NCBI GenBank assembly: GCA_012729555.1
Contig: JAAYCX010000036.1
Coordinates: forward strand, 1 to 40,332
Direction: 5' to 3'
Origin: Acidobacteriota bacterium
Lineage (GTDB): Bacteria; Acidobacteriota; UBA6911
Length of the DNA: 40,332 bases
Part shown: piece by piece, positions 9,396 through 35,861 of the stretch
Numbering within the stretch: the stretch's first letter is position 1
Layout of the letters: the number at the start of each line of letters is the position of its first letter
Notes under the pieces: generated by a model
Told to the model about the DNA's origin: nothing
Database searches by the model: none
The model's input: only the letters and a program-made list of their open reading frames with translations
Program-made: the position numbers and the translations under genes

Positions 9396-9739
9396 GGATG
9401 CCAGCGGCCCTGCCCGGCCGACGCTTGCGCGCGGCCCCGATCCCGGTTCATTCTTACGGTTGAGGCGGAAACCGTGGCCCGAAGCGCACCCGTTCCCGAG
9501 GGTTGAAAGTAACACAGCGGCCGATTTCGCGGCAAGAGCCAGTTCTCCTCTCCCCCCCACCCGGGGGCCCTGGAGGGGGCGGCAGCCGCCCGGTCTCTGG
9601 GGCTCCTGTTCAAAAAAGCCGTAACTCGTTGACATGGAATGACACTGCAGTTAGAATGCCTCCAAAGCAAAGGCAAGGAGACTGGAAGGAGAACCGGCTT
9701 TCGGTGGAGCCGTGGGTGAATCCGGATAAAGATCCTGCT
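9396..9739. other. Intergenic region between the DedA gene and rodZ
   Basis: 344 bases without a gene. The left part is GC-rich with long C and G runs around 9547-9590 that could form stem-loops but have no T-run. The right part holds the rodZ promoter (9629-9657). I see no ncRNA or repeat element here. Confidence 0.5.
9629..9657 (+). promoter_or_regulatory. rodZ promoter
   Basis: TTGACA (9629-9634), a 17-base spacer and TAGAAT (9652-9657). Start of transcription near 9664 excludes the in-frame ATG at 9656 as the start of the protein. Confidence 0.7.
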
Positions 9740-10636
9740 ATGGAATCTATCGCGGCGGTACTGAAATCGCAGAGGGAGCAGCGCAAACTCTCCCTTTCCC
9801 AGGTTGCGGCCGACACACGGATCAGCACGCGCCACCTCGAGAGCATCGAGGAGGGGCGTTTCGATGACCTGCCGGGCGGCATGTACAACCGCGCCTTTCT
9901 GCGCGCCTACTGCGAACGCCTCGGCCTGGACCAGTCGGAGATGCTCGAGCGTTACGAGTCGGAGGTCTCCCCCCGCACCGAAAAACCGATGCGGAGCCGA
10001 ACCCCGATCGATCCCGGCACCTCGTGGCGCATCCCGCCCGCGCTGGTCTGGAGCCTGATGCTGGCCCTCTCCGCGGCCGGGATCTTCCTGGCCAGGGAAT
10101 CGATTTACGAAATCTTCTCCCCCTATTTTTCCAGGCCGGCGGCCCCGGCGGTGACCTATGCCCCGCCCGCCTCCGCGGCCGCGTCCGCTTCGGCGGGCTC
10201 CGCTCCTTCGGGGGACGCCGGGACGGGCGCGGCGCCTTCGCCCGATTCCGCACCCGCGACGGGCGCGGCACCTTCAACCGATTCCGCGCCCGCGACGGGT
10301 TCCGCACCTTCGACCGGTACGGCGGACCAGTCCGGCGAAGCGGCCGCAGCCGCGGAGGCGGACGGCATCCTCCGGCTCGAAGTCGAAGGAACCGAATCGA
10401 GCTGGATCTCCATCTCCAGCGACGGCGGCCCGGCGATCCAGAAAATCCTCGAGCCGGGAGAGATCCAGTCGGCCAGCGCGACGGAGCAGATCCGGATCGT
10501 GGTCGGCAACGCCGGCGGCGTCCGCCTCAGGATCAACGGCAAACGGGCGAAACCGCTGGGCCGGTCCGGAGAGGTGGTCCGGCTGCTCATCGACCGGGCC
10601 ACCCTGGCCGGACTCCTCGATCCGGGCGCGGGTTAA
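9740..10636 (+). CDS. rodZ: RodZ-like cytoskeletal anchor protein
   Basis: Predicted bitopic membrane protein linking MreB to the cell wall machinery. The 298 residues comprise an N-terminal HTH_25 domain (residues 1-75, with LSLSQVAADTRISTRHLESIEEG and the family's YNRAFLRAYCERLGLD), a transmembrane helix at about 100-118, an Ala/Pro/Ser/Thr-rich periplasmic linker, and a C-terminal DUF4115-type beta domain (from about 215). The linker is built from a 36-bp DNA repeat. The ATG at 9740 gives the typical N-terminus but lacks a ribosome binding site; a GTG at 9704, 12 bases after AAGGAG (9686-9691), is an alternative that would add 12 residues. It heads an operon with two uncharacterised genes. 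Confidence 0.82.
   Translation: MESIAAVLKSQREQRKLSLSQVAADTRISTRHLESIEEGRFDDLPGGMYNRAFLRAYCERLGLDQSEMLERYESEVSPRTEKPMRSRTPIDPGTSWRIPPALVWSLMLALSAAGIFLARESIYEIFSPYFSRPAAPAVTYAPPASAAASASAGSAPSGDAGTGAAPSPDSAPATGAAPSTDSAPATGSAPSTGTADQSGEAAAAAEADGILRLEVEGTESSWISISSDGGPAIQKILEPGEIQSASATEQIRIVVGNAGGVRLRINGKRAKPLGRSGEVVRLLIDRATLAGLLDPGAG
10225..10314 (+). repeat. 36-bp tandem repeat in the rodZ linker
   Basis: Two 36-bp units (10225-10260 and 10261-10296) and an 18-bp half unit (10297-10314) encode the linker peptide GAAPSxDSAPAT. The units differ at few positions, so copy number is probably variable between strains. Confidence 0.75.
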
Positions 10637-19413: not shown

Positions 19414-19905
19414 ATGGCGGACAAGGAACACCTCACGGTGCTGATCGACGCGCTCAGGAGCGCGGACATCGGGATCTGGAACTCCTGGCGCGCGGCACTC
19501 GCCGGGAGCCCCGACCTCAGGGGAGCGGACCTCAGGGGCGCGGACCTGCGCCGCGCCGACCTGAGGGGCGCACTCCTCGGGCGCGCCGACCTGCGCCGCG
19601 CCTCCCTTCTGAAAGCCGACCTGCGCCGGGCGGTCCTGCGCAAGGCGGACCTGTGCGGCGCCGTCCTGCGCAAGGCCGATCTCCGCCTGGCCGATGCGAG
19701 CGCCGCCCTCCTGCGCCGGGCCGACCTGCGCCGCGCCGACCTCTCCGGGGCCGACCTGCGGAGCGCGGACCTGCGGTGGGCCAACCTCTCGGGCGCCGTG
19801 CTGGAAACGGCCGACCTGCGCTGGGCCAGGCTGCGCGGGTCGATCCGGGCGGAAGCGTCCGAGGCGGACGGGGCGTCCAAGGCGGACGGGGCGGCCGCGG
19901 ACTAG
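19414..19905 (+). CDS. Pentapeptide-repeat protein
   Basis: A 163-residue protein of which most (about residues 32-145) is pentapeptide repeats of the A(D/N)LxX type: DLRGADLRGADLRRADLRG, RADLRRASLLKADLRRAVL and so on, about 20 units. These form a right-handed quadrilateral beta helix. The N-terminal 30 residues are helical and the C-terminus is a low-complexity Ala/Glu/Asp tail. Such proteins can mimic DNA (Qnr/MfpA) and protect gyrase, or act in other interactions; the acidic-basic balance here (many Arg) makes DNA mimicry less likely. GGAGGA precedes the ATG. It lies directly downstream of tRNA-Ala. Confidence 0.85.
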   Translation: MADKEHLTVLIDALRSADIGIWNSWRAALAGSPDLRGADLRGADLRRADLRGALLGRADLRRASLLKADLRRAVLRKADLCGAVLRKADLRLADASAALLRRADLRRADLSGADLRSADLRWANLSGAVLETADLRWARLRGSIRAEASEADGASKADGAAAD

Positions 19906-20807: not shown

Positions 20808-23804
20808 ATGGCCGAAATCGTTGGACACTACGAGATCCTGGAGAAGCTGGGGGAGGGGGGGATGGGCCTCGTCTACCGGGCCCGCGACACCCGCCTCGGC
20901 CGCGAGGTCGCCCTCAAGCTGCTGCCCGAGCGGCTGGCCGTCCAGCCGGCCTACCTGCAGCGCTTCAAGCGCGAGGCGCGCGCGGCCTCCTCGCTCAACC
21001 ACCCCAATATCTGCACCATCTACGAAATCGGGGAGCACGAGGGGCGCCCCTTCATCGCCATGGAACTGCTCGAGGGGGAAACCGTGCGGCAGCTCCTCCC
21101 GCACAGGCCGCTCGAGGAGGACCGCATCCTCGCCCTCGGGCTCGAAATCGCCGACGCCCTGGAGGCGGCGCACTCGAAGGGCATCATCCACCGGGATCTC
21201 AAGCCCGCGAACATCTTCGTCACCCGCCGCGGCGGCGTCAAGATCCTCGATTTCGGCCTGGCCAAGCTGGCCGCGGCCGGCGAGGCCCCCGACCCCGCCG
21301 CGCAGGGGGACGAGATCTCGCCCGAGTACCTGAGCTCCCCGCAGGTGGCCATCGGCACCCTCCCCTACATGTCGCCCGAACAGGCGCTCTCGGAGGAACT
21401 CGACGGGCGCTCGGACCTCTTCTCGCTCGGCTCGGTCCTCTACGAGATGGCCACCGGCCTCCCGGCCTTCACCGGGAAGTCGCACCCCGTCCTCTTCCAG
21501 CAGATCCTGACCCGCGTCCCCGCCCCCCCGAACCGGCTCAACCCGGAGATTTCCCCGAGGCTTGCAGACGCCATCTGCCGCCTGCTCGAAAAGGACCGGG
21601 AGCTGCGCTACCAGACCGCGGCCGACCTGCGCGCCGATTTCAGGCGGATCCGGCGCGACCGCGAACTCGCCCGGGCGGTCCCCGGCGCCCCGCCCCCGCC
21701 CCCGGCCGAACCCGCCCCCGCCGCCTCCGGGCCGCACCGCCGTCCCTGGGCCCTCTTCCGGGCACAAGCCCGTCCCGCGGGGAGCGCGCCCCGTCCCGAA
21801 ACGACGGGGCGCCCCCTCCCGGCCCTCCTCTCGCGCCTCCGCCGCCCGAAGACCGCCGCGCTCGCCCTCCTCGCCCTGCTGGCCCTGGCCCTTTCGGCCC
21901 TCTACCTCCTCCCCCGTCCGGTTTACCTCCCCTGCATCGAGTTCGCGGACTTCACGGGCGGCTCCGAATCGGTCGACGCCGATGTGGTGAGCTTCGTCCT
22001 CGGGCGCACCCTCTCCCAGTTCCCCGAGATCAGCGTGCTCGACGGCAAGGAATTCGGCCACCTCCTCCGGATGGAGCGGGCGCGCCGTCAAAGCGCCGGA
22101 GCCGCGTCCCTGCTCGAGCGCCTGCCGTGGCGCGAGCGGCGGCTGGAGCCCGCGGTGCGGGTCGGCGGGCACGTGAGCGACTCGCTGGGCCAGCTCGAGA
22201 TCCGCCTCGACTGCCGCATCCGCGGCCGCGCGAGCGTCCAGGTCCGGCGTTTCCGGGGGGTCGACGACCTGCTCAACCAGGGGATCGACGAACTGGCGCG
22301 GTACACGCTCGAGGCCTACGCCCCCGCCGCGGCGGAGCGCCGCTACCGCGCCCGCCCCCGCGCCTACCGCACCGCGGTCGAGCTGCTCTCGCCGCGCTGG
22401 GACGCGCTGCGCCACTACCACCGCGGCGCGCGGGCCTGGGAGAGCTTCGACATGTACTCGGCCGAACGGGAGCTCCGCTCCGCGCTCGAGATCGACCCCA
22501 ACCTGGCCCTGGCCCACCTCAAACTGGGCGAGGTCCGGATTTTCCAGAACCAGTGGGACGCGGCGCAGTCGGAAATCCTGGCCGCCCGGCGCCAGTCGGG
22601 GGCCCTGACCGAGGAGGACCAGCTGCGGGTGGAGGCCTTCCTGGCCCGTGTCTTCGGCCAGCCGTTCGACGAGCGCGTCTACCTGCAGCGCCTCATCGGG
22701 CTGCGCCCGCACAAGCGGGAGTACCTCTACGAACTGGCCGAGTCGTACTTCCACACCGCCGACGTCGACGAGGCGATCAGCCGCTACCAGGACGCGCTCA
22801 GCCTCGACGCCGATTACGCCCGCGTCTACAACCACCTGGCCTACTGCTACTCCTGGAAGGGGGAGCACGCCAGGGCGCTCGAGGCCTGCCGCCGTTACCT
22901 CGAGCTGGACCGGAGCGCCAACGCCTACGACAGCCTCGGGGACGCCCACATGCAGGCGGGGGAATACGAGCGCGCCCGGGAGATGAAATCGCGCGCCATC
23001 GAGATGGACCCCGACATCTTCTACGCCATCCGCAACCTCGCCTTCATCGAGATGCTGACCGGGCGCGGCGACGCCGCCCTGGAGCGGCTCCGGTCGATCG
23101 CCGGAGCCACCGACGACAAGGTGCAGATGGCGCAGTCGTACGCGGCGCTGGCCTACGTCCACTACCGCGCGGGGCGGGCGGCGGAGGCGCGCGAAATGTG
23201 CCGCCGCGGACTGGGGCTGCTCGGCTCGGTCCAGTACGACGCCCCCCACGACGAGCTGGTCTGGATCCTCGGCATGATCGAGATCGGCCGCGGCGACCTC
23301 GCGGCCGCGCGCCGCGCCCTGGGGCAGCTGCGCGATATCCTCGATTCCAGCTCCATCACCGCGATGAACTACAAGCCGGCCTACAAGTACTGGCTCTACC
23401 TGAACGCCCGCATCCTGGCCGAGGAGGGGCGCCGCGCCGAGGCCGCGGCCGCCGTCAACGACCTGGTCTGGATCCGGGACAAGCTCGGGTACTGGAGCAC
23501 CCCGTACGACTGCGCCTTCTTCTTCGACCTGATCGGGAAGATCCACGAGCGGATGGGGCAGGAGGAGGAGGCCGAGCAGGCCTACCTCGACAGCCTCTCC
23601 TACAACCCCCGTTACGCCGAGGCCAGGCTGCACCTGGCCGAATTGCTGCAGCGCAAGGGGGCAGCGGAGGCGGCGCAGCGGGAGATGAGCCTGTTCTGGC
23701 AGCAGTGGCGGGGGGCGGAGGAAGACGACCCCCTCACCGTGGCCGCGCTCCGCGCCTCGGCCCTGATGGGGTTGTCGCGGCCGGACGCCGGAGCGCGGCG
23801 ATGA
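20808..23804 (+). CDS. Receptor-like Ser/Thr protein kinase with TPR domain
   Basis: A 998-residue membrane kinase. The cytoplasmic kinase domain (residues 7 to about 285) has the glycine loop GEGGMG, Lys37 in VALK, the HRDLKPAN catalytic loop with Asp130, DFG at 148-150 and a [11 protein letters not shown] activation segment, so it should be active. A Pro-rich linker leads to a transmembrane helix (about 348-368). The external part starts with a FlgO- or adenylate-cyclase-associated-like domain ([28 protein letters not shown] split over about 375-520) and ends with roughly ten TPR units. GGGGAGAG precedes the ATG. The TPR region probably senses or binds an envelope partner. Confidence 0.93.
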
Positions 23805-24472
23805 TCCGGGCGGTCCTGTTCGACCTCGACGGGGTGCTGTTCGACACCCTCGGCTACCACTGCCGGGCGTGGCGCCGGGCGTTCGAGCTGCGCGGGGGGA
23901 CGATCCGGGACGAGACCGTTCTCCGCAACGAAGGGCGCAGCTCGGGCGACATCCTCCCCCTCCTGATGCGGGAATCGGGGGTGGAGATCCCGCCCGGGGA
24001 GCGGGAGGCGTTCCTCGAGGAAAAGCGCCGCTACTTCCAGGCCATCCTGGAGGTCCGCCCCTTCCCGGGCGCCCTCCGGGTGGTGCGGGAGCTGCGGGAG
24101 CGCGGATACCGCCTCGCCCTGGTCACCGGCAGCGACTCGCGCAACGTCCGCCTCCTCCTGGACGACGCGCTGCGGGAGTGCTTCGGGGCCGTCGTCACCG
24201 GCGACGGGGCCGGGCGCACGAAACCCGCCCCCGACCCCTGGCTCGCCGCGGCCCGCGCGCTCGATGTCGAGCCCCGCGAGTGCCTCGTGGTGGAGAACGC
24301 GCCGCTGGGGATCGAGGCCGCCCGCGCCGCCGGGATGACGTGCGTCGCCGTGCGGAGCACCCTCGGGGCAAAGTGGCTGGCCGCCGCCGACCTGGTCGTC
24401 CCCGAGATCGGCCGTGTCCTGGACCACCCCCTCCTGGCGCCCGGGGCGCGCGGACCGGAATCTAGCTCTTGA
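23801..24472 (+). CDS. HAD-superfamily phosphatase, beta-phosphoglucomutase-like
   Basis: A 223-residue HAD hydrolase. Motif I is DLDGVLFDT with nucleophile Asp and acid Asp two residues on; motif II is VTGSDS; motif III is the Lys in GRTKPAPD; motif IV is VVENAPLGIEAA. The substrate (a phosphosugar or a small phosphate) cannot be told. Its ATG overlaps the stop of the kinase gene (ATGA), so it is coupled to a Ser/Thr kinase, though HAD enzymes of this subgroup normally act on metabolites. It overlaps the convergent ExeA-like gene by 11 bases. Confidence 0.9.
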   Translation: MIRAVLFDLDGVLFDTLGYHCRAWRRAFELRGGTIRDETVLRNEGRSSGDILPLLMRESGVEIPPGEREAFLEEKRRYFQAILEVRPFPGALRVVRELRERGYRLALVTGSDSRNVRLLLDDALRECFGAVVTGDGAGRTKPAPDPWLAAARALDVEPRECLVVENAPLGIEAARAAGMTCVAVRSTLGAKWLAAADLVVPEIGRVLDHPLLAPGARGPESSS

Positions 24473-25655
24473 CCACGTAAAGGTGGGGTTTCGCGCGGGA
24501 GCGGCCCCCGCCCCCCCCCTCGTCCCAGGGGGAGAGCGCCTGCGAGCGCAGGACCAGGTCGTAGGCCGAGTCCTCCACGATCCGTTCGTCCACGGCCGGG
24601 AGGCCGATCGAGGCGGCCAGCGACAGGGAGTGGCGGCAGAGCATGTTGACGCTGAGCGGGATGCCGCGCGAATACAGGGCCACCAGGTCGAGGGCCGCGG
24701 GGGTGAAGGCCCCCGGGGCGCAGCCGGAAAGCCGGAGCCGGTGGAGCACGTACCCGCGCGTCTCGGCCGCGTCCATGGGCGTCAGCCGGCAGTAGACGCC
24801 GATCCGCCGGCCGGGCGCCTCTTCCCCCCGCCCCGCGAGGCGGTCGGCCAGCCCCGGCCTCCCGGCCAGGATCACGGTCAGCAGCCGCTGCCGCCCGAGC
24901 GCCGGCTCCGCCAGCGCTACGAGGCGTCCGAGCGCGTCCCCGTCCAGTTCCTGGGCGTTGTCGACGATGACGGCCGCGCGCCGGCCCGCGAGGGCCCGCC
25001 GGACGAGCTCCCGCTCGAGGCGCCCCGGGGCGTCGGCGGCGGCGCAATCCCCCCCTTCGATCCCGAGGGCCCCCATGACGGCCCGCGCCAGCTGCCCGCT
25101 CCCCCTCGAGGGGCCGGAGAGGTGGACGAAATCGCACTGCCGCCGGAGGCTCCCCGCCAGGAAGGCCAGCAGCGTCGTCTTCCCCATTCCCGCCTGTCCC
25201 AGGAGCGCGGCGGCGCCGCGCCCCTCGCGCAGGACCGTGCGGAGCGCGGCCAGCACGTCCCGGTGCGCGCGCGTGAGGCAGTAGAGAGCGGGGTCGGGGG
25301 CGAAGCCGAAGGGGTCCGCGAGCCCCCGCGCGCGCCGGTCGCGCCCGCCGGGCGCCGCCGCGAGCCCCCGCTCGAGGAGCAGGGCGACGGAAGCGTCGGG
25401 CACGCCCTGCGCCCAGCGGGTGGCGAGCTGGAAGGCGCGGCAGAGGTAGCGGCGCTTCCCCGACTGCAGCTGCGCCACCGTGGAGCCCTCGGCGGCAAGT
25501 TGCTCCGCGTCGAGGATCGAGAGGATCCGGTCCCCGATCAGGGCGTCGAGCGCCTCGGGACGATCCGCCGGGTTCGGGTAGGCCAGGATCCTGACCGATT
25601 CCGGGTCGCCCGCCAGGGGCCGCAGGGCGGCGTCGAGCAGGATGATACCGTTCAC
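24462..25655 (-). CDS. ExeA/GspA-like AAA ATPase with an N-terminal extra domain
   Basis: A 397-residue protein. Residues 1-100 form a PAS-like domain (ILLDAALRPLAGDPESVRILAYP) resembling N-termini of some acidobacterial regulators. The AAA domain (about 112-345) opens with FGFAPDPALYCLTRAHRDVLAAL, the usual ExeA lead-in, and has Walker A GQAGMGKTT (153-161), Walker B AAVIVDNAQEL and the sensor region LLTVILAGRPGL. ExeA proteins normally help assemble secretins; the C-terminal peptidoglycan-binding domain is missing. Start is GTG at 25655, with AAGGAGG six bases before it. It stands alone. Confidence 0.82.
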   Translation of the reverse strand: MNGIILLDAALRPLAGDPESVRILAYPNPADRPEALDALIGDRILSILDAEQLAAEGSTVAQLQSGKRRYLCRAFQLATRWAQGVPDASVALLLERGLAAAPGGRDRRARGLADPFGFAPDPALYCLTRAHRDVLAALRTVLREGRGAAALLGQAGMGKTTLLAFLAGSLRRQCDFVHLSGPSRGSGQLARAVMGALGIEGGDCAAADAPGRLERELVRRALAGRRAAVIVDNAQELDGDALGRLVALAEPALGRQRLLTVILAGRPGLADRLAGRGEEAPGRRIGVYCRLTPMDAAETRGYVLHRLRLSGCAPGAFTPAALDLVALYSRGIPLSVNMLCRHSLSLAASIGLPAVDERIVEDSAYDLVLRSQALSPWDEGGGGGRSRAKPHLYVVKS

Positions 25656-29612: not shown

Positions 29613-29618
29613 CGCCCC

Positions 29619-30476
29619 ATGCGCTTACGAATCCTCGCCCCCTTGCTCCCGCTCCTGCTTCTGATGCACCCCCCCGTGCCGGCCTCCGGGCAGCCGCTCG
29701 CGATCTCCGCGGCGGGTCCGCTCACCCCCGGGGAGGTCGTGCTCCTCAGGATCGGGACCCGGCTCGACTCGCTCGAGATCCGCGCCTTCGGCCGCTCCTT
29801 CCCCGCCTTCCCCGTCGACGGGGCCTGGAACGCCCTCGTGGGGGTCGACCTCGGCACGAAGCCGGGGACCTACACCCTGCGGCTCGAGGGGACGCTGCCG
29901 GGGGGCGAAAAGATCACGGGCGCCGACACCCTCACCGTGCGCGGGAAGAGCTTCCCCACCCGCCATCTCAAGGTCGAGCCGAAATACGTGACCCCGCCTG
30001 CAGCCGTGCTCGCCCGGATCGAGCGCGAGAGCGCCGAGGTGGAGGCCGTCTTCGGCGCCCTCTCCCCCGCGCGCCTCTGGAGCGGCCCCTTCGCCAAGCC
30101 GGTCCCGGGCGCGCTGATCAGCGAGTTCGGCAAGCGCACGGTCTACAACGGCCAGCCGCGCAAGCCCCACACCGGGGTCGACCTGCGCGGCGCCGCCGGC
30201 ACCCCCGTCGCCGCCCCCAACGCCGGCCGGGTGGCGCTGGCCCAGGACCTCTACTACTCCGGCCTCACCGTGATCCTCGACCACGGCCTGGGCGCCTGCT
30301 CCTACCTGGCCCACCTCTCGGAGATGTCGGTCCAGGCCGGGGACGTCGTCAAGAAGGGGGAGATCGTCGGAAAGGTGGGCGCGACCGGCCGCGTGACCGG
30401 CCCCCACCTGCACTGGACCGTCACCCTCTCCGGCGCCCGCGTCGACCCGCTGTCGCTGATAGATGTGACGAGGTAG
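29619..30476 (+). CDS. M23 (LytM-type) peptidase, exported
   Basis: A 285-residue exported protein with a signal peptide (RILAPLLPLLLLMHPPVPASG). The first half is a beta-rich domain (LTPGEVVLLRIGTRLDSLEIRAF) that probably binds cell wall or caps the enzyme. The second half is the LytM metalloprotease domain with HTGVDLRG (His and Asp zinc ligands), the VILDHGLGACSYLAHL strand and HLHW (second and third histidines). All zinc ligands are present, so it is likely an active peptidoglycan endopeptidase rather than an inactive activator. Start follows the leaderless promoter. Confidence 0.88.
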   Translation: MRLRILAPLLPLLLLMHPPVPASGQPLAISAAGPLTPGEVVLLRIGTRLDSLEIRAFGRSFPAFPVDGAWNALVGVDLGTKPGTYTLRLEGTLPGGEKITGADTLTVRGKSFPTRHLKVEPKYVTPPAAVLARIERESAEVEAVFGALSPARLWSGPFAKPVPGALISEFGKRTVYNGQPRKPHTGVDLRGAAGTPVAAPNAGRVALAQDLYYSGLTVILDHGLGACSYLAHLSEMSVQAGDVVKKGEIVGKVGATGRVTGPHLHWTVTLSGARVDPLSLIDVTR

Positions 30477-30482
30477 GCCGGG

Positions 30483-31475
30483 CTACCGGGTCTCCACCGT
30501 CTCCCGGGTGTGGGTGACGCGCATCCCCCCGTTCGGAGAGGGTTCCTGCACCTCGAGCACCCGGCGGGTCCTTTCGGCTCCCGCGGGAGCGCTCCGCTCG
30601 ACGATCCGGCGCACCACCCGCACCCCCTCGCCCGGGGCGGCGGGACTCGCCTCCTCGCGGGTTTCGACCGTTTCCACACCCCCGTCCCCCAGCTCCCGCC
30701 GGCTCTGCCGGACCCGGCCGGCAAAGCGGAGCCTGCCTTCAAGGTCGGCATTGAAGATCTGGGCCTCCATCCGGCTCCGGCCGGCCGAATCCTTCCACTC
30801 CCGCGCCTCGACCTGCCGCTCGAGCCTGAGCCGGTTGTTCACGTCGTAGCTGTAGAGCGCCTCATCGGTGCGCGTCTCCCCCTCCGCCGCGGTGCTCTGG
30901 CTCACGCGCCGTTCGACGACGCTCCACTTACCCGACAGGTCGGGCTGGTAGCGCACGCGGTCGATCTCGACCGCCTCCCCGTCGCGCCGCTCGCTCTGGC
31001 GCACCCGCTCCCGCTCCTCCATGGCGCCCGACACGCCCGGGACCAGGGAGCGGAAGGTGACCTCGAACCCCTCCCCTTCCGGCACCGCCCGCTGCGTCTG
31101 CCGCTCGACCGCCCGCATCGCGCCGCCCGGGCCGGCCCGGGAAACGGTGCGGGTGGCGTCGTGACCGCCCCCCTTCAGCTCCCCGATCTCCTCGACGACG
31201 GTCTCGACCAGCCGCCGCCGCCCGTTGACGTCCTTCCCGTAGACGGTGCGGGTGACGCGGGTGGTGGCCCCCGACACCTCGCGCCGGACCTCGATCTCGA
31301 CCGGGGGGCCGGTGACAACGGCCGCCTCGAGCGACTCCGCCCGGCGCGTGGCCAGGCTCACCCCCGCGGTCTCCCCGGCGGGGTCGATCCATCGAAATGC
31401 GGGTTTTTCCGCTTCGGCGGCAACGAGGGAAACAACAGAACAAGAGAGCAAAAGCAAAACGAGCGGTCGGCGCAT
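30483..31475 (-). CDS. Exported repetitive protein of unknown function
   Basis: A 330-residue protein with a signal peptide (LVLLLLSCSVVSLVAAEA). The mature part is made of about seven degenerate repeats of roughly 40-45 residues that share a D-x-[GN]-[RK]-x-x-[LV]-V-E-R-x-V core: DVNGRRRLVETVVEE, DLSGKWSVVERRVSQS, DVNNRLRLERQVEAR, DLEGRLRFAGRVRQS. They are rich in Arg and Glu and should form beta hairpins. No homolog comes to mind. AGGAGGAGG precedes the ATG. It follows the AAA+ gene by 54 bases and probably shares its transcript. Confidence 0.78.
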   Translation of the reverse strand: MRRPLVLLLLSCSVVSLVAAEAEKPAFRWIDPAGETAGVSLATRRAESLEAAVVTGPPVEIEVRREVSGATTRVTRTVYGKDVNGRRRLVETVVEEIGELKGGGHDATRTVSRAGPGGAMRAVERQTQRAVPEGEGFEVTFRSLVPGVSGAMEERERVRQSERRDGEAVEIDRVRYQPDLSGKWSVVERRVSQSTAAEGETRTDEALYSYDVNNRLRLERQVEAREWKDSAGRSRMEAQIFNADLEGRLRFAGRVRQSRRELGDGGVETVETREEASPAAPGEGVRVVRRIVERSAPAGAERTRRVLEVQEPSPNGGMRVTHTRETVETR

Positions 31476-31529
31476 GAAGCCTCCTCCTCCCCTAATGAAA
31501 ATCCTATGGATGAGGAAAATCAATCCCAA

Positions 31530-32924
31530 TCAGGAGGCGCGCTCGGCCCGGGCGGACCCTACGGCGGGCGCGGACGACTCGGGCGCGGACGACTCGGGCG
31601 CGGACGCCCCGGGCGCGGACGCCCCTGGCGCGCGTTCCACCAGGAAGAGGTTTTCGAGCGCGTCGGCCACGAGGTCCCTGGTCAGGCGCGGCTCGCGCCC
31701 CATGTAGCGGCAGGTGGCCTCGGCGTGCTCCACGATGAAGGCGGGGTGAAACGCCGCGCAGGAGCCGCCGTGGCGGGGGTAGAAATCCTCGAGCAGCCAG
31801 GAGAGGATCTCGTCCGGAAGGTCCATCTCCCTGCGCCGGCAGACCCCCTGGAAGATGCTGACGTAGTCGGCCATCGAGGGGGGGTCGAGATGGAGCTTGT
31901 ACTTGACCCGCCGCATCAGCCCGGGGTCCATCAGCTCGCGGGGCGAGAGGTTGGTGGAGAAGATCACCAGTTCGTCGAACGGCACGTCGAACTTTTTTCC
32001 GGTGTGGAGCTTCAGGTAATCCACCCGGCGCTCGAGCGGGATGATCCAGCGGTTGAGCAGGTCCTTGGGGCGCACCAGCTGCCGGCCGAAATCGTCGATG
32101 ATGAAGACCCCCCCGATCGCCTTCATCTGCGGCGGGGCCTCGTAGAACTTGGCCGTCTGGTCGAAATCGAGGTCGAGCATCTCGAGGGTCAGCTCCCCCC
32201 CGGTCACCACCACCGGGCGGCGGCAGCGGGTCCAGCGCGGGTCGGGCCTCTTCTTCAGAAGCTCGCGGTAGTCCCCCGCCCCGCTCTTCTCCTCCCGGAT
32301 CTCCTCGTGCACGGTGGGGTCGTAGACGCGGATCACCTGCCCGTCCACCTCGACGCAGTGGGGGATGAAGATCGGCTGCGCGAACGCCCGCCCGATCGCC
32401 TCGCTGATCGAACTTTTCCCGTTGCCGGGGGGGCCGTAGATCAGGAGCGACTGCCCCGAATTGACCGCGGGGCCGAGGCGGCGGATCACGCTCGCGGGAA
32501 GCACCAGGTGGGAGAGGGCCGAAGCGAGCCGCTCCATCGAAATCTGCTCGTTGGCGAGGCCCTGGCGCACCACCTGCTCCTGGTACTGGGCCAGGGGGAC
32601 CGGCAGGGGCCCCACGTACTCGCACTGGCGGGCCGATTCGATGGCGAGGTCCCGAGCCGCGGTCGTGAGGGAGTAGCGGGCGACGCGGGAGTCGGCCCCC
32701 TCGAACCCCTTGATCTCGATGAACCCCTGCTGCTTGAGTTTGCCGAGCAGGTCGTCGACGATCCCCTGCCCCAGCCGGAGCTGGGCGGCGATGGCCACGT
32801 TGGTCTCGAGCCCCAGCAGGTACATGCTCCGAAACAGCAGGGCGCTGACGAACTTCACGTTGAGCCCGGTTTCCTCGAGCCTGGCGGGCATGGGGGGGAA
32901 GAAATCTTCGGCGATCGGGTCCAT
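31530..32924 (-). CDS. AAA+ ATPase with N-terminal winged-helix domain
   Basis: A 464-residue MoxR-like AAA+ protein. Residues 1-110 look like a winged helix (PPMPARLEETGLNVKFVSALL, then VDDLLGKLKQQGFIEIKGFEG). The AAA domain has Walker A GPPGNGKSS (164-172), Walker B GGVFIIDDFG (near 271-280), sensor 1 IFSTNLSP and an arginine finger in LMRRVKYKL. The C-terminus is an Ala/Ser/Pro tail coded by a 15-bp repeat. ATG at 32924 gives the family's usual start near PPxPxxLEETGL; the frame stays open upstream to 33110 but with codon use unlike the rest. It is not next to a VWA-domain gene, the usual MoxR partner. Confidence 0.85.
   Translation of the reverse strand: MDPIAEDFFPPMPARLEETGLNVKFVSALLFRSMYLLGLETNVAIAAQLRLGQGIVDDLLGKLKQQGFIEIKGFEGADSRVARYSLTTAARDLAIESARQCEYVGPLPVPLAQYQEQVVRQGLANEQISMERLASALSHLVLPASVIRRLGPAVNSGQSLLIYGPPGNGKSSISEAIGRAFAQPIFIPHCVEVDGQVIRVYDPTVHEEIREEKSGAGDYRELLKKRPDPRWTRCRRPVVVTGGELTLEMLDLDFDQTAKFYEAPPQMKAIGGVFIIDDFGRQLVRPKDLLNRWIIPLERRVDYLKLHTGKKFDVPFDELVIFSTNLSPRELMDPGLMRRVKYKLHLDPPSMADYVSIFQGVCRRREMDLPDEILSWLLEDFYPRHGGSCAAFHPAFIVEHAEATCRYMGREPRLTRDLVADALENLFLVERAPGASAPGASAPESSAPESSAPAVGSARAERAS
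31566..31625. repeat. 15-bp tandem repeat, four units
   Basis: Units at 31566, 31581, 31596 and 31611 share GGGCGCGGACG plus four variable bases. They encode the repeated APESS/APGAS tail of the AAA+ protein and could vary in copy number. Confidence 0.85.
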
Positions 32925-33017
32925 GGTCTCCTCGGCAATAAGCAATTCCCTAGCCTCATCGGCCGCGCCGGCGGGGGATTTACCGAAAAACGCCGGGGCC
33001 ACCCGCCGCAATTTTCC

Positions 33018-33046
33018 TTGATCCCCGGCGCCAAACCCCATAGTAT
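33018..33046 (+). promoter_or_regulatory. Possible promoter of the two-component operon
   Basis: TTGATC (33018-33023), 17 bases, TAGTAT (33041-33046), 35 bases before the ATG at 33082. Both boxes match four of six. Confidence 0.45.
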
Positions 33047-33081
33047 GTTTGTTTTCAACCATCAGCGGGCTTTCGAACCCT

Positions 33082-35184
33082 ATGGCGCTCCTGAGAAGAA
33101 ACAACCGCACCCTCCGCCTGAAGGCCGTCCGCCTCTACCTCCTGGCGGTGCTGGTGGCCACCCTCGTCCTGCTCGGCTTCAGCGTGGTCTCCCTCTACGA
33201 GCAGCGGCTGCGGGCCCGGGAACTCTCCACCGCGAACCTCGACGACGCCGGGGAGCGGCTGGCGCGCGAAATGGAAGGGCGCATCGCGCTTTTGGCCGAG
33301 GACTGCCTCGACCCGCACGCCCTGGGGATGCTGCGCTACGACCCGCGCAGGGCGGATTCGCTCGAGGAGCTCGCCCGCTACCGGGAATTCTTCAACCGGC
33401 GCCGCGACCTGCACCCGATCGCGCAGAATTTCTTCCTCTTCGAAGGGGCGCGCCAGGTCTTCCCCCGCCTCGCCCTGCCGCCAGAGGAAACGCCGGAGGA
33501 GATCGCGCCCTTCCATGCGGGGCGGCAGAACGCGGCCTTTTTACGCCTCCTGGCCGAAGGGGAGCAGCTGGAAAAGAGCAGCGACCGGGCCCGGGCGGTG
33601 CAGGCGTATCGCCAGGCCGAGGCCCTGCCCGTAGCCCCCCGGCTGCGCGGGACGGCGCTCTACCGCGCCGCCCGGGCGCTGCGCCGCGCCGGGCGGGAAA
33701 CGGAAGCGCGGGAGGCGCTGCGGCTCCTGGTGAGCCGCTACGGAGACGCTTACGACGGCTCCCAGCTCCCTTTCGTCCTCGGCGTGGCGACGAGCGAAGA
33801 CGCGCCGCTCCTCGAGCACCCCCTCCCCACCGTCCACGACCTCTACCACGACCTGCTCGAGGGGCGGTGGGAGCTGTCGGCCGCCCAGCTCGAGCGCGTC
33901 CTCCCGAACCTCGAATCGCGGCTGGGAACGGGGGACACCTACCGCACCGACTCCTTCTTCCTGGCGGGGATGAAAACGGCCGCCGGCATCCGGTCCCATT
34001 TTTCCCCCGAGCGGCTCGAGCAGCCGAACCGGACCTACCCCCAGGCCTTCCACCACCAGGACACCCCCTACCAGGTCTTCATGACGCGCCTGCCGCAGCC
34101 GGGGGGGGAGGATCTCACCGTCGGCTTCTTCCTCTCCTTCCGCTGGCTCGAGCGGGGCCTGATCCCGAGCTACGCCCGGCAGGGGGCCTTCGAGTCGCTC
34201 CGCTCGGCCGCGCTGGTCGACTCGCAGCAGCTCGCGAGCCTCGGGCGGGAGGAGGGGGAAACGATCGCCTCCTTCCAGAACCTCCTCCCCTACTGGAAGC
34301 TGCGGGTGGTGTCGGACCCCGTCCCCGCCGGCTCCGGATCGCGGCGCGAACTCTGGTTCATGGCGCTTTCGGCGGTGATGTTCGGCCTGATCCTGGCCCT
34401 CGGCCTCTTCCTCTTCATCCAGGTGTCGTGGGACATCCGCTCCTTCCAGCTCCGCTCCGACTTCGTGAGCGGGGTTTCGCACGAGTTCAAGACCCCGCTC
34501 AGCCTGATCCGCCTCTACAGCGAAACGCTGGCGGACGACAACGGGGAGTTCGCGCCCGAGGACCGGAAGAATTACCTCAGCATCATCGCCCGCGAGAGCG
34601 CGCGCCTGAGCCGGCTGATCAACAACGTGCTCGATTTTTCCCGCCGGGAGAAGAACCTCCCCCCGCCCGCCATGCCCGAGGGGCAGGTCGAAGAGGCGGT
34701 GGCGCAGGTGGCCCAGGATTTCAGCGACTACCTGTTCATGAAGGGATTCGAGCTCCGCCTCTCGATCCAGCCCGGCCTGCCCCCGGTGCGGCACAACCCG
34801 GAGCAGGTCTACCAGATGGTGGCGAACCTGATCGACAACGCGCGCAAGTATTCGGGCGCCTCCCGCCTGATCCGGCTCAACGCCTGGCGCGAGGGGGACG
34901 AGGTGGTCGTGGAAGTGCAGGATAACGGGATCGGGATTTCGGCCGAAGAGAAGAAGCGGATCTTCGACGCCTTCTACCGGGTCCCGGGGACGGCTGAAAA
35001 AGGAGGGTGCGGCCTGGGGCTCTACCTCGTGGCCCAGGTCATGAAAGACCACGGGGGGAAAGTCGAGGCCGAGAGCGAGGTCGGCCAGGGGAGCCGCTTC
35101 CGCCTCCGCTTCCCGGTGGCTAAAGCACAGAAGACCAGGATCACGGCTGTCGAAGCGCGGCTGAAACGGGGGCTGGAAAGCTAA
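33082..35184 (+). CDS. Sensor histidine kinase with large periplasmic TPR-like sensor
   Basis: A 700-residue membrane histidine kinase. A first helix (about 17-37) is followed by a sensor region of about 380 residues, partly helical and TPR-like (AVQAYRQAEALPVAPRLRGTALYRAARALRRAG), before the second helix (about 423-450). The HisKA domain has the H-box SGVSHEFKTPLSLIRLYSE with His467, and the ATPase domain has N-box NLIDNARKYS (Asn586), G1 DNGIGIS and G2 GCGLGLYL. ATG at 33082 is preferred; a TTG at 33049 would overlap the promoter. It overlaps the response regulator gene by one base (TAATG). Confidence 0.93.
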   Translation: MALLRRNNRTLRLKAVRLYLLAVLVATLVLLGFSVVSLYEQRLRARELSTANLDDAGERLAREMEGRIALLAEDCLDPHALGMLRYDPRRADSLEELARYREFFNRRRDLHPIAQNFFLFEGARQVFPRLALPPEETPEEIAPFHAGRQNAAFLRLLAEGEQLEKSSDRARAVQAYRQAEALPVAPRLRGTALYRAARALRRAGRETEAREALRLLVSRYGDAYDGSQLPFVLGVATSEDAPLLEHPLPTVHDLYHDLLEGRWELSAAQLERVLPNLESRLGTGDTYRTDSFFLAGMKTAAGIRSHFSPERLEQPNRTYPQAFHHQDTPYQVFMTRLPQPGGEDLTVGFFLSFRWLERGLIPSYARQGAFESLRSAALVDSQQLASLGREEGETIASFQNLLPYWKLRVVSDPVPAGSGSRRELWFMALSAVMFGLILALGLFLFIQVSWDIRSFQLRSDFVSGVSHEFKTPLSLIRLYSETLADDNGEFAPEDRKNYLSIIARESARLSRLINNVLDFSRREKNLPPPAMPEGQVEEAVAQVAQDFSDYLFMKGFELRLSIQPGLPPVRHNPEQVYQMVANLIDNARKYSGASRLIRLNAWREGDEVVVEVQDNGIGISAEEKKRIFDAFYRVPGTAEKGGCGLGLYLVAQVMKDHGGKVEAESEVGQGSRFRLRFPVAKAQKTRITAVEARLKRGLES

Positions 35185-35861
35185 TGATCAAGATACTCAT
35201 CGTCGAAGACAACGCCGAAATGGCCATGGGGCTCGAGCTCAACCTTAAAAAAGAAGGGTACAAGGTCCTCAAGGCCGCTACCGGGGAGGAGGCGCTCAAG
35301 CGGGTGTTCCAGGACGGCCCCGACCTCATCCTGCTCGACGTCATGCTTCCCGGCATCAGCGGGCTGGACGTCTGCCGCGAGCTGCGGCAGCGGTCGGTCT
35401 CGACCCCCATCATCATGCTCACGGCCAAGGGGGAGGAGCTCGACCGGGTGCTCGGGCTCGAGATCGGGGCCGACGACTACGTCACCAAGCCGTTCGGCGT
35501 CCGGGAGCTGATGGCCCGCATCCGCGTCTGCCTGCGGCGCCAGTCGGCCCAGCCGCAGCTGTCGCGCTACCGCTTCGGCAACGTGGAGATCGACTTCGAC
35601 CGCTACCGCGCCACCATCGGCGACCGCCACGTGGAGTTCACCCAGAAGGAGTTCGACCTGCTCAGCTACCTGATCCACAACCGCGAGGTCGTCGTCAGCC
35701 GCGATCGGCTGCTCAACGAAGTCTGGGGCTACGACAGCTACCCCACCACCCGCACGGTCGACACCCACATCCTGAAGCTGCGCAAGAAGATCGAGGAAGA
35801 CCCCTCCAACCCCAAATTCATCCTCTCCGTCTACGGCGGCGGGTATCGGTTTGTGGGGTAG
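35184..35861 (+). CDS. OmpR/PhoB-family response regulator
   Basis: A 225-residue regulator with a receiver domain (1-120) whose phosphorylated Asp is Asp52 in DLILLDVMLPG, acidic pair Glu8-Asp9, and the conserved Lys in YVTKPFGVREL. A winged-helix DNA-binding domain (130-225) has the EFTQKEFDLLSYLIHNREVVVS and TVDTHILKLRKKIE segments. It is coupled to the histidine kinase by TAATG and must be its partner. Target genes are unknown. Confidence 0.96.
   Translation: MIKILIVEDNAEMAMGLELNLKKEGYKVLKAATGEEALKRVFQDGPDLILLDVMLPGISGLDVCRELRQRSVSTPIIMLTAKGEELDRVLGLEIGADDYVTKPFGVRELMARIRVCLRRQSAQPQLSRYRFGNVEIDFDRYRATIGDRHVEFTQKEFDLLSYLIHNREVVVSRDRLLNEVWGYDSYPTTRTVDTHILKLRKKIEEDPSNPKFILSVYGGGYRFVG

Follow-up and report, generated by a model that had tools for sequence, protein, structure and literature searches.

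Two minus-strand genes, coding for an AAA+ ATPase and a putative exported repeat protein, lie divergent from a histidine kinase-response regulator pair in the window (the whole stretch of 40,332 nucleotides analysed, from the Acidobacteriota genome designated G000). The locus comprises:

29616-30476, gene for an M23 peptidase, converging on the repeat-protein gene.
30483..31475, minus strand, gene for the putative exported repeat protein (330 aa; start codon ATG at 31475, stop at 30483).
31476..31529, minus strand, 54-bp gap between the co-directional ATPase and repeat-protein genes.
31530..32924, minus strand, AAA+ ATPase gene (464 aa), with ATG at 32924 and the stop ending at 31530.
31565..31632, minus strand, 15-bp tandem repeat within the ATPase gene, coding for an Ala/Ser/Pro-rich C-terminal tail.
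32925..33081, no strand, 157-bp divergent intergenic region between the ATPase and kinase genes.
33082..35184, plus strand, histidine kinase gene (700 aa), with ATG at 33082.
35184..35861, plus strand, gene for an OmpR/PhoB-type response regulator (225 aa).

The coordinates and gene order of the original prediction were right, and the divergent gap is confirmed by the starts of the two ORFs. A GGAGGAGG-type ribosome site precedes the start of the repeat-protein ORF, and this gene and the ATPase gene probably form an operon. In the divergent region, 32925-33081, neither a sigma-70-type site nor a direct repeat was found. Elsewhere in the window are found a gene for a RodZ-like protein (9503-10636) with an internal 36-bp tandem repeat (10218-10316), imperfect 15-bp and 45-bp tandem repeats at 19511-19827 together with two long ORFs that have no Pfam match, a serine/threonine protein kinase with TPR repeats (20808-23804) and a second ATPase (AAA_22; 24462-25655) unrelated to the AAA+ gene.

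The ATPase carries a Walker A motif (GPPGNGKS, residues 164-171), a Walker B motif (IIDDFGR, 275-281), sensor 1 (STN, 323-325) and an arginine pair (338-339), all of them invariant or nearly so in an alignment of 11 sequences. These elements, together with its matches to AAA proteins in the PDB, identify it as an AAA+ protein. Its best Pfam match is AAA_16 (E 4.8e-4), all Pfam matches lying under the family cut-off; NCBIfam matches were far under theirs, the best of them spanning only Walker A. A family profile made from the 11 sequences retrieved classical AAA proteins from the PDB (Rix7, Cdc48, spastin; best E 7.9e-10), and it is this class that the AAA region resembles, to judge from the profile matches. 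The protein had originally been described as MoxR-like. The AAA_3 and AAA_5 models mark MoxR-type proteins; AAA_5 gave only E 0.092, below cut-off, AAA_3 was not listed among the matches and no MoxR model of NCBIfam was matched. The MoxR identity, countered also by the classical-AAA matches, was rejected. Full-length identity to ten relatives ranges from 34 to 58%, and this relationship, along with the tree described below, assigns the window ATPase by sequence to an unnamed AAA family linked to Tad loci. The Ala/Ser/Pro-rich tail is missing from its relatives.

No hydrophobic or membrane segment was detected in the ATPase, which is predicted to be cytosolic. Its structural model is poor except in the N- and C-terminal parts, the AAA core having a mean pLDDT of 43. 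In the first 100 residues, the model consists of helices and a beta hairpin in a winged-helix-like arrangement (block pLDDT about 56-80 over residues 11-100). Thus modelled, the protein is apparently a cytosolic AAA protein with an N-terminal winged helix. Helices and hairpin of this kind are typical of winged-helix domains, and the ATPase could itself be a regulator, with a winged helix that binds DNA or a transcription partner; it would then act serially with the two-component system in controlling the repeat gene. The lack of a membrane segment in a protein whose partner looks exported would agree with such a role, as would the MarR-type matches, all of them weak (E 0.0028 for the AdcR family in NCBIfam, E 0.024 for a PDB match). 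DNA-binding families give no significant match, however, and we consider the regulator role unlikely.

The repeat protein has a single hydrophobic stretch, at the N-terminus, and is predicted to be exported, as had been proposed. It matched no family in Pfam, NCBIfam or PADLOC, again in line with the original description. Arginine and glutamate are its most frequent residues (46 and 38 of 272, respectively), and the repeats are genuine: the self-score at a lag of 33 residues, averaged over four family members, is -0.073, a value reached by none of 500 shuffles even when the maximum over all lags is taken (mean -0.527, highest -0.380). For the window protein alone, the best lag was matched by 6 of 1000 shuffles. 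We count eight 33-residue units plus a partial one, rather than the seven previously reported. A single-sequence model (mean pLDDT 67) shows alternating strands, 17 in all and each some 11 residues long. With this model, VIA-align ranked beta-barrels first, VDAC at their head (Z 14.4, 220 residues superposed at 3.4 A), and Foldseek returned nothing at E<=0.001. Charged residues make up 36% of the protein and occupy both faces of most modelled strands. We read the model as a soluble or surface beta-meander; an outer-membrane barrel is a possible reading that we do not adopt.

In a profile search of the phylum, the repeat protein was found in 9 of 396 genomes. Its gene adjoins the ATPase gene in three of them (G000, G010 and G013) and lies without a neighbouring ATPase gene in the other six: it adjoins a TIGR03436 VWA gene in G014, in G023 and G027 it follows a gene for RNase R, and in G115 it is remote from every ATPase of this family, as are the weak matches of G206 and G295. 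The exported-looking proteins of the last two (L108:6991-8016 and L109:6892-7839) have DxNGR-type repeats and are apparently distant relatives. Where the repeat gene stands by itself (L023, L024, L025 and L107), a search of the upstream DNA for hidden ATPase remnants gave no match better than E 0.02. The repeat protein is absent from all nine other genomes of the same genus.

The ATPase family is more widespread, being present in 40 of the 396 genomes by profile search. We compared 45 loci, namely 44 of the 46 places obtained from the phylum search plus L020, whose record is titled Deltaproteobacteria. The stretches read are 3.2-40 kb long and, because their lengths differ, the counts of Tad, VWA and DUF192 neighbours given here are lower bounds. 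Tad genes, designated by their Pfam names, adjoin the ATPase gene in 24 of the 45 loci: at least two kinds are present in 20 loci and a single kind in four more on short contigs (CpaF in L035; TadB/C in L088, L093 and L099). Loci L076, L103 and L105, with single weak or distant matches that may be due to chance, were left out of this count. DUF192 genes occur in 12 of the 45 stretches, every one Tad-linked (L035, L079-L082, L084-L088, L090 and L111). By eye, J-domain-like genes were seen two genes upstream of the ATPase gene in L020 (2-634), L032 (297-917) and L033 (4652-5272), and the G027 C360 ATPase (L028:452-1918) was seen to have an N-terminal extension resembling the GspE/MshE N-terminal domain. 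Many of the Tad-linked relatives stand where the pilus cluster ends, behind TadB/C genes, a position that suits a role in assembly as well as it does a regulatory one.

VWA genes lie within the stretch in 11 of the 45 loci, so that the VWA partnership supposed at the outset would suit some relatives; a profile built from these VWA neighbours found no such gene in the window. The same 11 loci are what could be said for a MoxR-like chaperone working directly on the exported repeat protein. This proposal is largely refuted by family membership, the ATPase matching classical AAA profiles and no MoxR model, and the ATPase and repeat protein are moreover predicted to lie on opposite sides of the membrane; we consider it highly improbable.

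The link with Tad extends to whole genomes. The Tad marker CpaB/RcpC was found in 86 of the 396 genomes: 32 of the 40 ATPase-bearing genomes have it, as against 54 of the other 356 (Fisher p 6e-17, a value that overstates the association because the genomes are related and kinship is uncorrected). Eight ATPase-bearing genomes have no CpaB: G000, G010, G013, G035, G023, G242, G249 and G312. In G242, other Tad genes adjoin the ATPase gene, and in G312 a contig of 3.5 kb carries TadB/C. In a tree of 43 rows, Tad linkage changes at least five times; an origin of the 23 Tad-linked rows in one clade was rejected (p-AU 1.5e-5, for a group named after the tree had been seen). The Tad locus is the usual home of the ATPase family in this phylum. 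We found no description of such an ATPase in Tad loci in the open PMC literature searched (including PMC13234629, PMC6668835, PMC13170226 and PMC3174227).

The window copy departs from this pattern. There is no Tad gene of any kind near the ATPase gene in the 40-kb window, and CpaB was not found in the window's genome, which is 98.9% complete. Nor was it found in G010, G013 or G035, where its lack is weaker evidence because these genomes are only 84-88% complete. The window's genome gave six T2SSE matches, which by family names assigned by eye resemble PilB, PilT, GspE and fragments. No obvious CpaF is among them, as they are like CpaF in the nucleotide-binding region only. In the tree, the window ATPase groups with that of G013 (98/98), G035 joins less surely (81/69) and the long-branched row of G358 joins these three (100/99). 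None of the ATPase loci in this group is counted as Tad-linked; G358 has one CpaB, far off. Among the nine other genomes of the same genus, eight lack the ATPase family and one, G001, has it at two places (L029 and L035), both adjoining Tad genes. The firm result is an unnamed ATPase family that is tied to Tad loci in the phylum and is an orphan in the window's genome.

The kinase has two hydrophobic stretches, one from about residue 11 and one ending at about residue 452. Between them lies a large predicted extracytoplasmic part, described earlier as a TPR-like sensor, with a TPR_6 match that is weak and below cut-off (E 2.4e-4). This sensor part was matched in 4 of 60 relatives, its own genome included, the other three matches being 25-27% identical, and the idea that it is shared with the kinases of other ATPase loci was rejected on these figures. 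The three other matches belong to kinase-regulator pairs that have no ATPase gene in the stretch read. Kinases in L076, L080, L082 and L085 have only the kinase core in common with it. The ATPase relative of G035 has a second kinase gene immediately upstream. The kinase that it encodes and that of the window pick each other as best match, at 45% identity (the best of seven matches in the forward search in G035, the next being at 39%; in the reverse search the next of eight was at 35%). This second G035 kinase gene is cut by the contig end, and its sensor part is therefore unseen.

How far these genes belong together was judged from their neighbourhoods. The order ATPase then repeat protein recurs in 3 of the 45 ATPase loci (G000, G010 and G013), which represent one family and two genera; in the other 42 the ATPase has different partners. 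The contig of G010 begins inside the ATPase gene. Instead of a kinase gene, G013 has a dehydrogenase-like gene divergent from the ATPase gene, so that the whole three-gene set is seen only in the window. The original prediction, that ATPase, repeat protein and kinase may form one module, had named differing ATPase partners or relatives lacking the repeat protein as the evidence that would speak against it. To a large extent this is what was found, since partners differ in 42 of 45 loci and the repeat protein stands apart from the ATPase in six of nine genomes. An obligate trio is thus unsupported, and what survives are the two pairings. Because these are kept in different genomes and the full set occurs only in the window, a module is possible but loose; it is plausible and partly conserved, if unproven.

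One alternative is that the neighbours are independent, a stand-alone ATPase of a Tad-associated family adjoining by chance an exported repeat protein and a two-component system unrelated to them. Such independence would account for the varied neighbours of the non-Tad ATPase loci elsewhere, for the repeat genes next to RNase R or VWA genes, and for the similar kinase-regulator pairs in three relatives of the same class, G030, G032 and G035, which have no ATPase gene in the stretch read. It fits less well with an ATPase-repeat order kept in two genera and a kinase-ATPase adjacency kept in a second family, that of G035. We regard chance adjacency as quite possible, though less likely than not, and only slightly less probable than the explanation favoured below.

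The explanation that we favour, tentatively and with a likelihood somewhat below even, is a Tad-family ATPase now associated with a repeat protein under two-component control. The family of winged-helix cytosolic AAA proteins would mostly serve Tad pilus loci in the phylum; in the window's branch, the ATPase would have split from the Tad pilus or never have been part of one, and it would now probably be transcribed together with the exported beta-hairpin repeat protein. The kinase would sense a condition of the envelope, and the regulator, acting on the shared upstream region, would activate the operon of ATPase and repeat genes. Exported through Sec, the repeat protein would build a beta-meander scaffold in the envelope. 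A cytosolic ATPase is unlikely to touch an exported protein without a transport step; it would rather act in the cytosol on a client that is regulatory or in the inner membrane. Observed are the gene order, the family assignment, the Tad linkage of relatives, the lack of CpaB and the two partly kept pairings, whereas operon, regulation, export route and client are inferred. Against this explanation speak the dehydrogenase-like gene of G013, the near absence of the ATPase and the complete absence of the repeat protein in the rest of the genus, the truncated G035 kinase, the negative search for a promoter or direct-repeat site in the shared region and the poorly modelled AAA core. The more specific version, in which a hitherto unrecognised winged-helix AAA ATPase is a regular Tad accessory in this phylum, taken over in a Tad-free branch for a different, two-component-controlled envelope structure made of the 33-residue beta-hairpin repeat protein, seems to us somewhat unlikely. 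Were the ATPase a true Tad component, a large group of Tad pili would have a further ATPase in addition to CpaF and CpaE, and its Tad-free copies would reveal which part of its task needs no pilus. If it is not, its family would still be clearly delimited, an AAA family without a name to whose role genome context gives a strong clue.

Among known systems, IetA is the top PADLOC match of the ATPase (E 6.8e-8; 1.5e-6 in NCBIfam). The likeness covers only some 35 residues around Walker A and scores 27.6 bits against an NCBIfam cut-off of 510, and an anti-phage defence reading was rejected. MoxR/VWA pairs share with the locus an AAA ATPase and, near some relatives, a VWA gene; unlike them, the window ATPase has no MoxR sequence match and has a repeat protein for partner. 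With classical AAA proteins (Rix7, Cdc48, spastin, Msp1) the Walker A and sensor-1/arginine regions match, but the matches are short and leave the winged helix and the middle part of the window ATPase uncovered. The Tad/Flp (type IVc) clusters are the context of many relatives, which in 24 of 45 loci adjoin genes for CpaB, secretin, CpaE, CpaF, TadB/C and TadE/G; the window copy, unlike these, has no Tad gene nearby, in a genome without CpaB. The Tad ATPase CpaF/TadA belongs to the T2SSE ATPases, and the family of the window ATPase is a different one.
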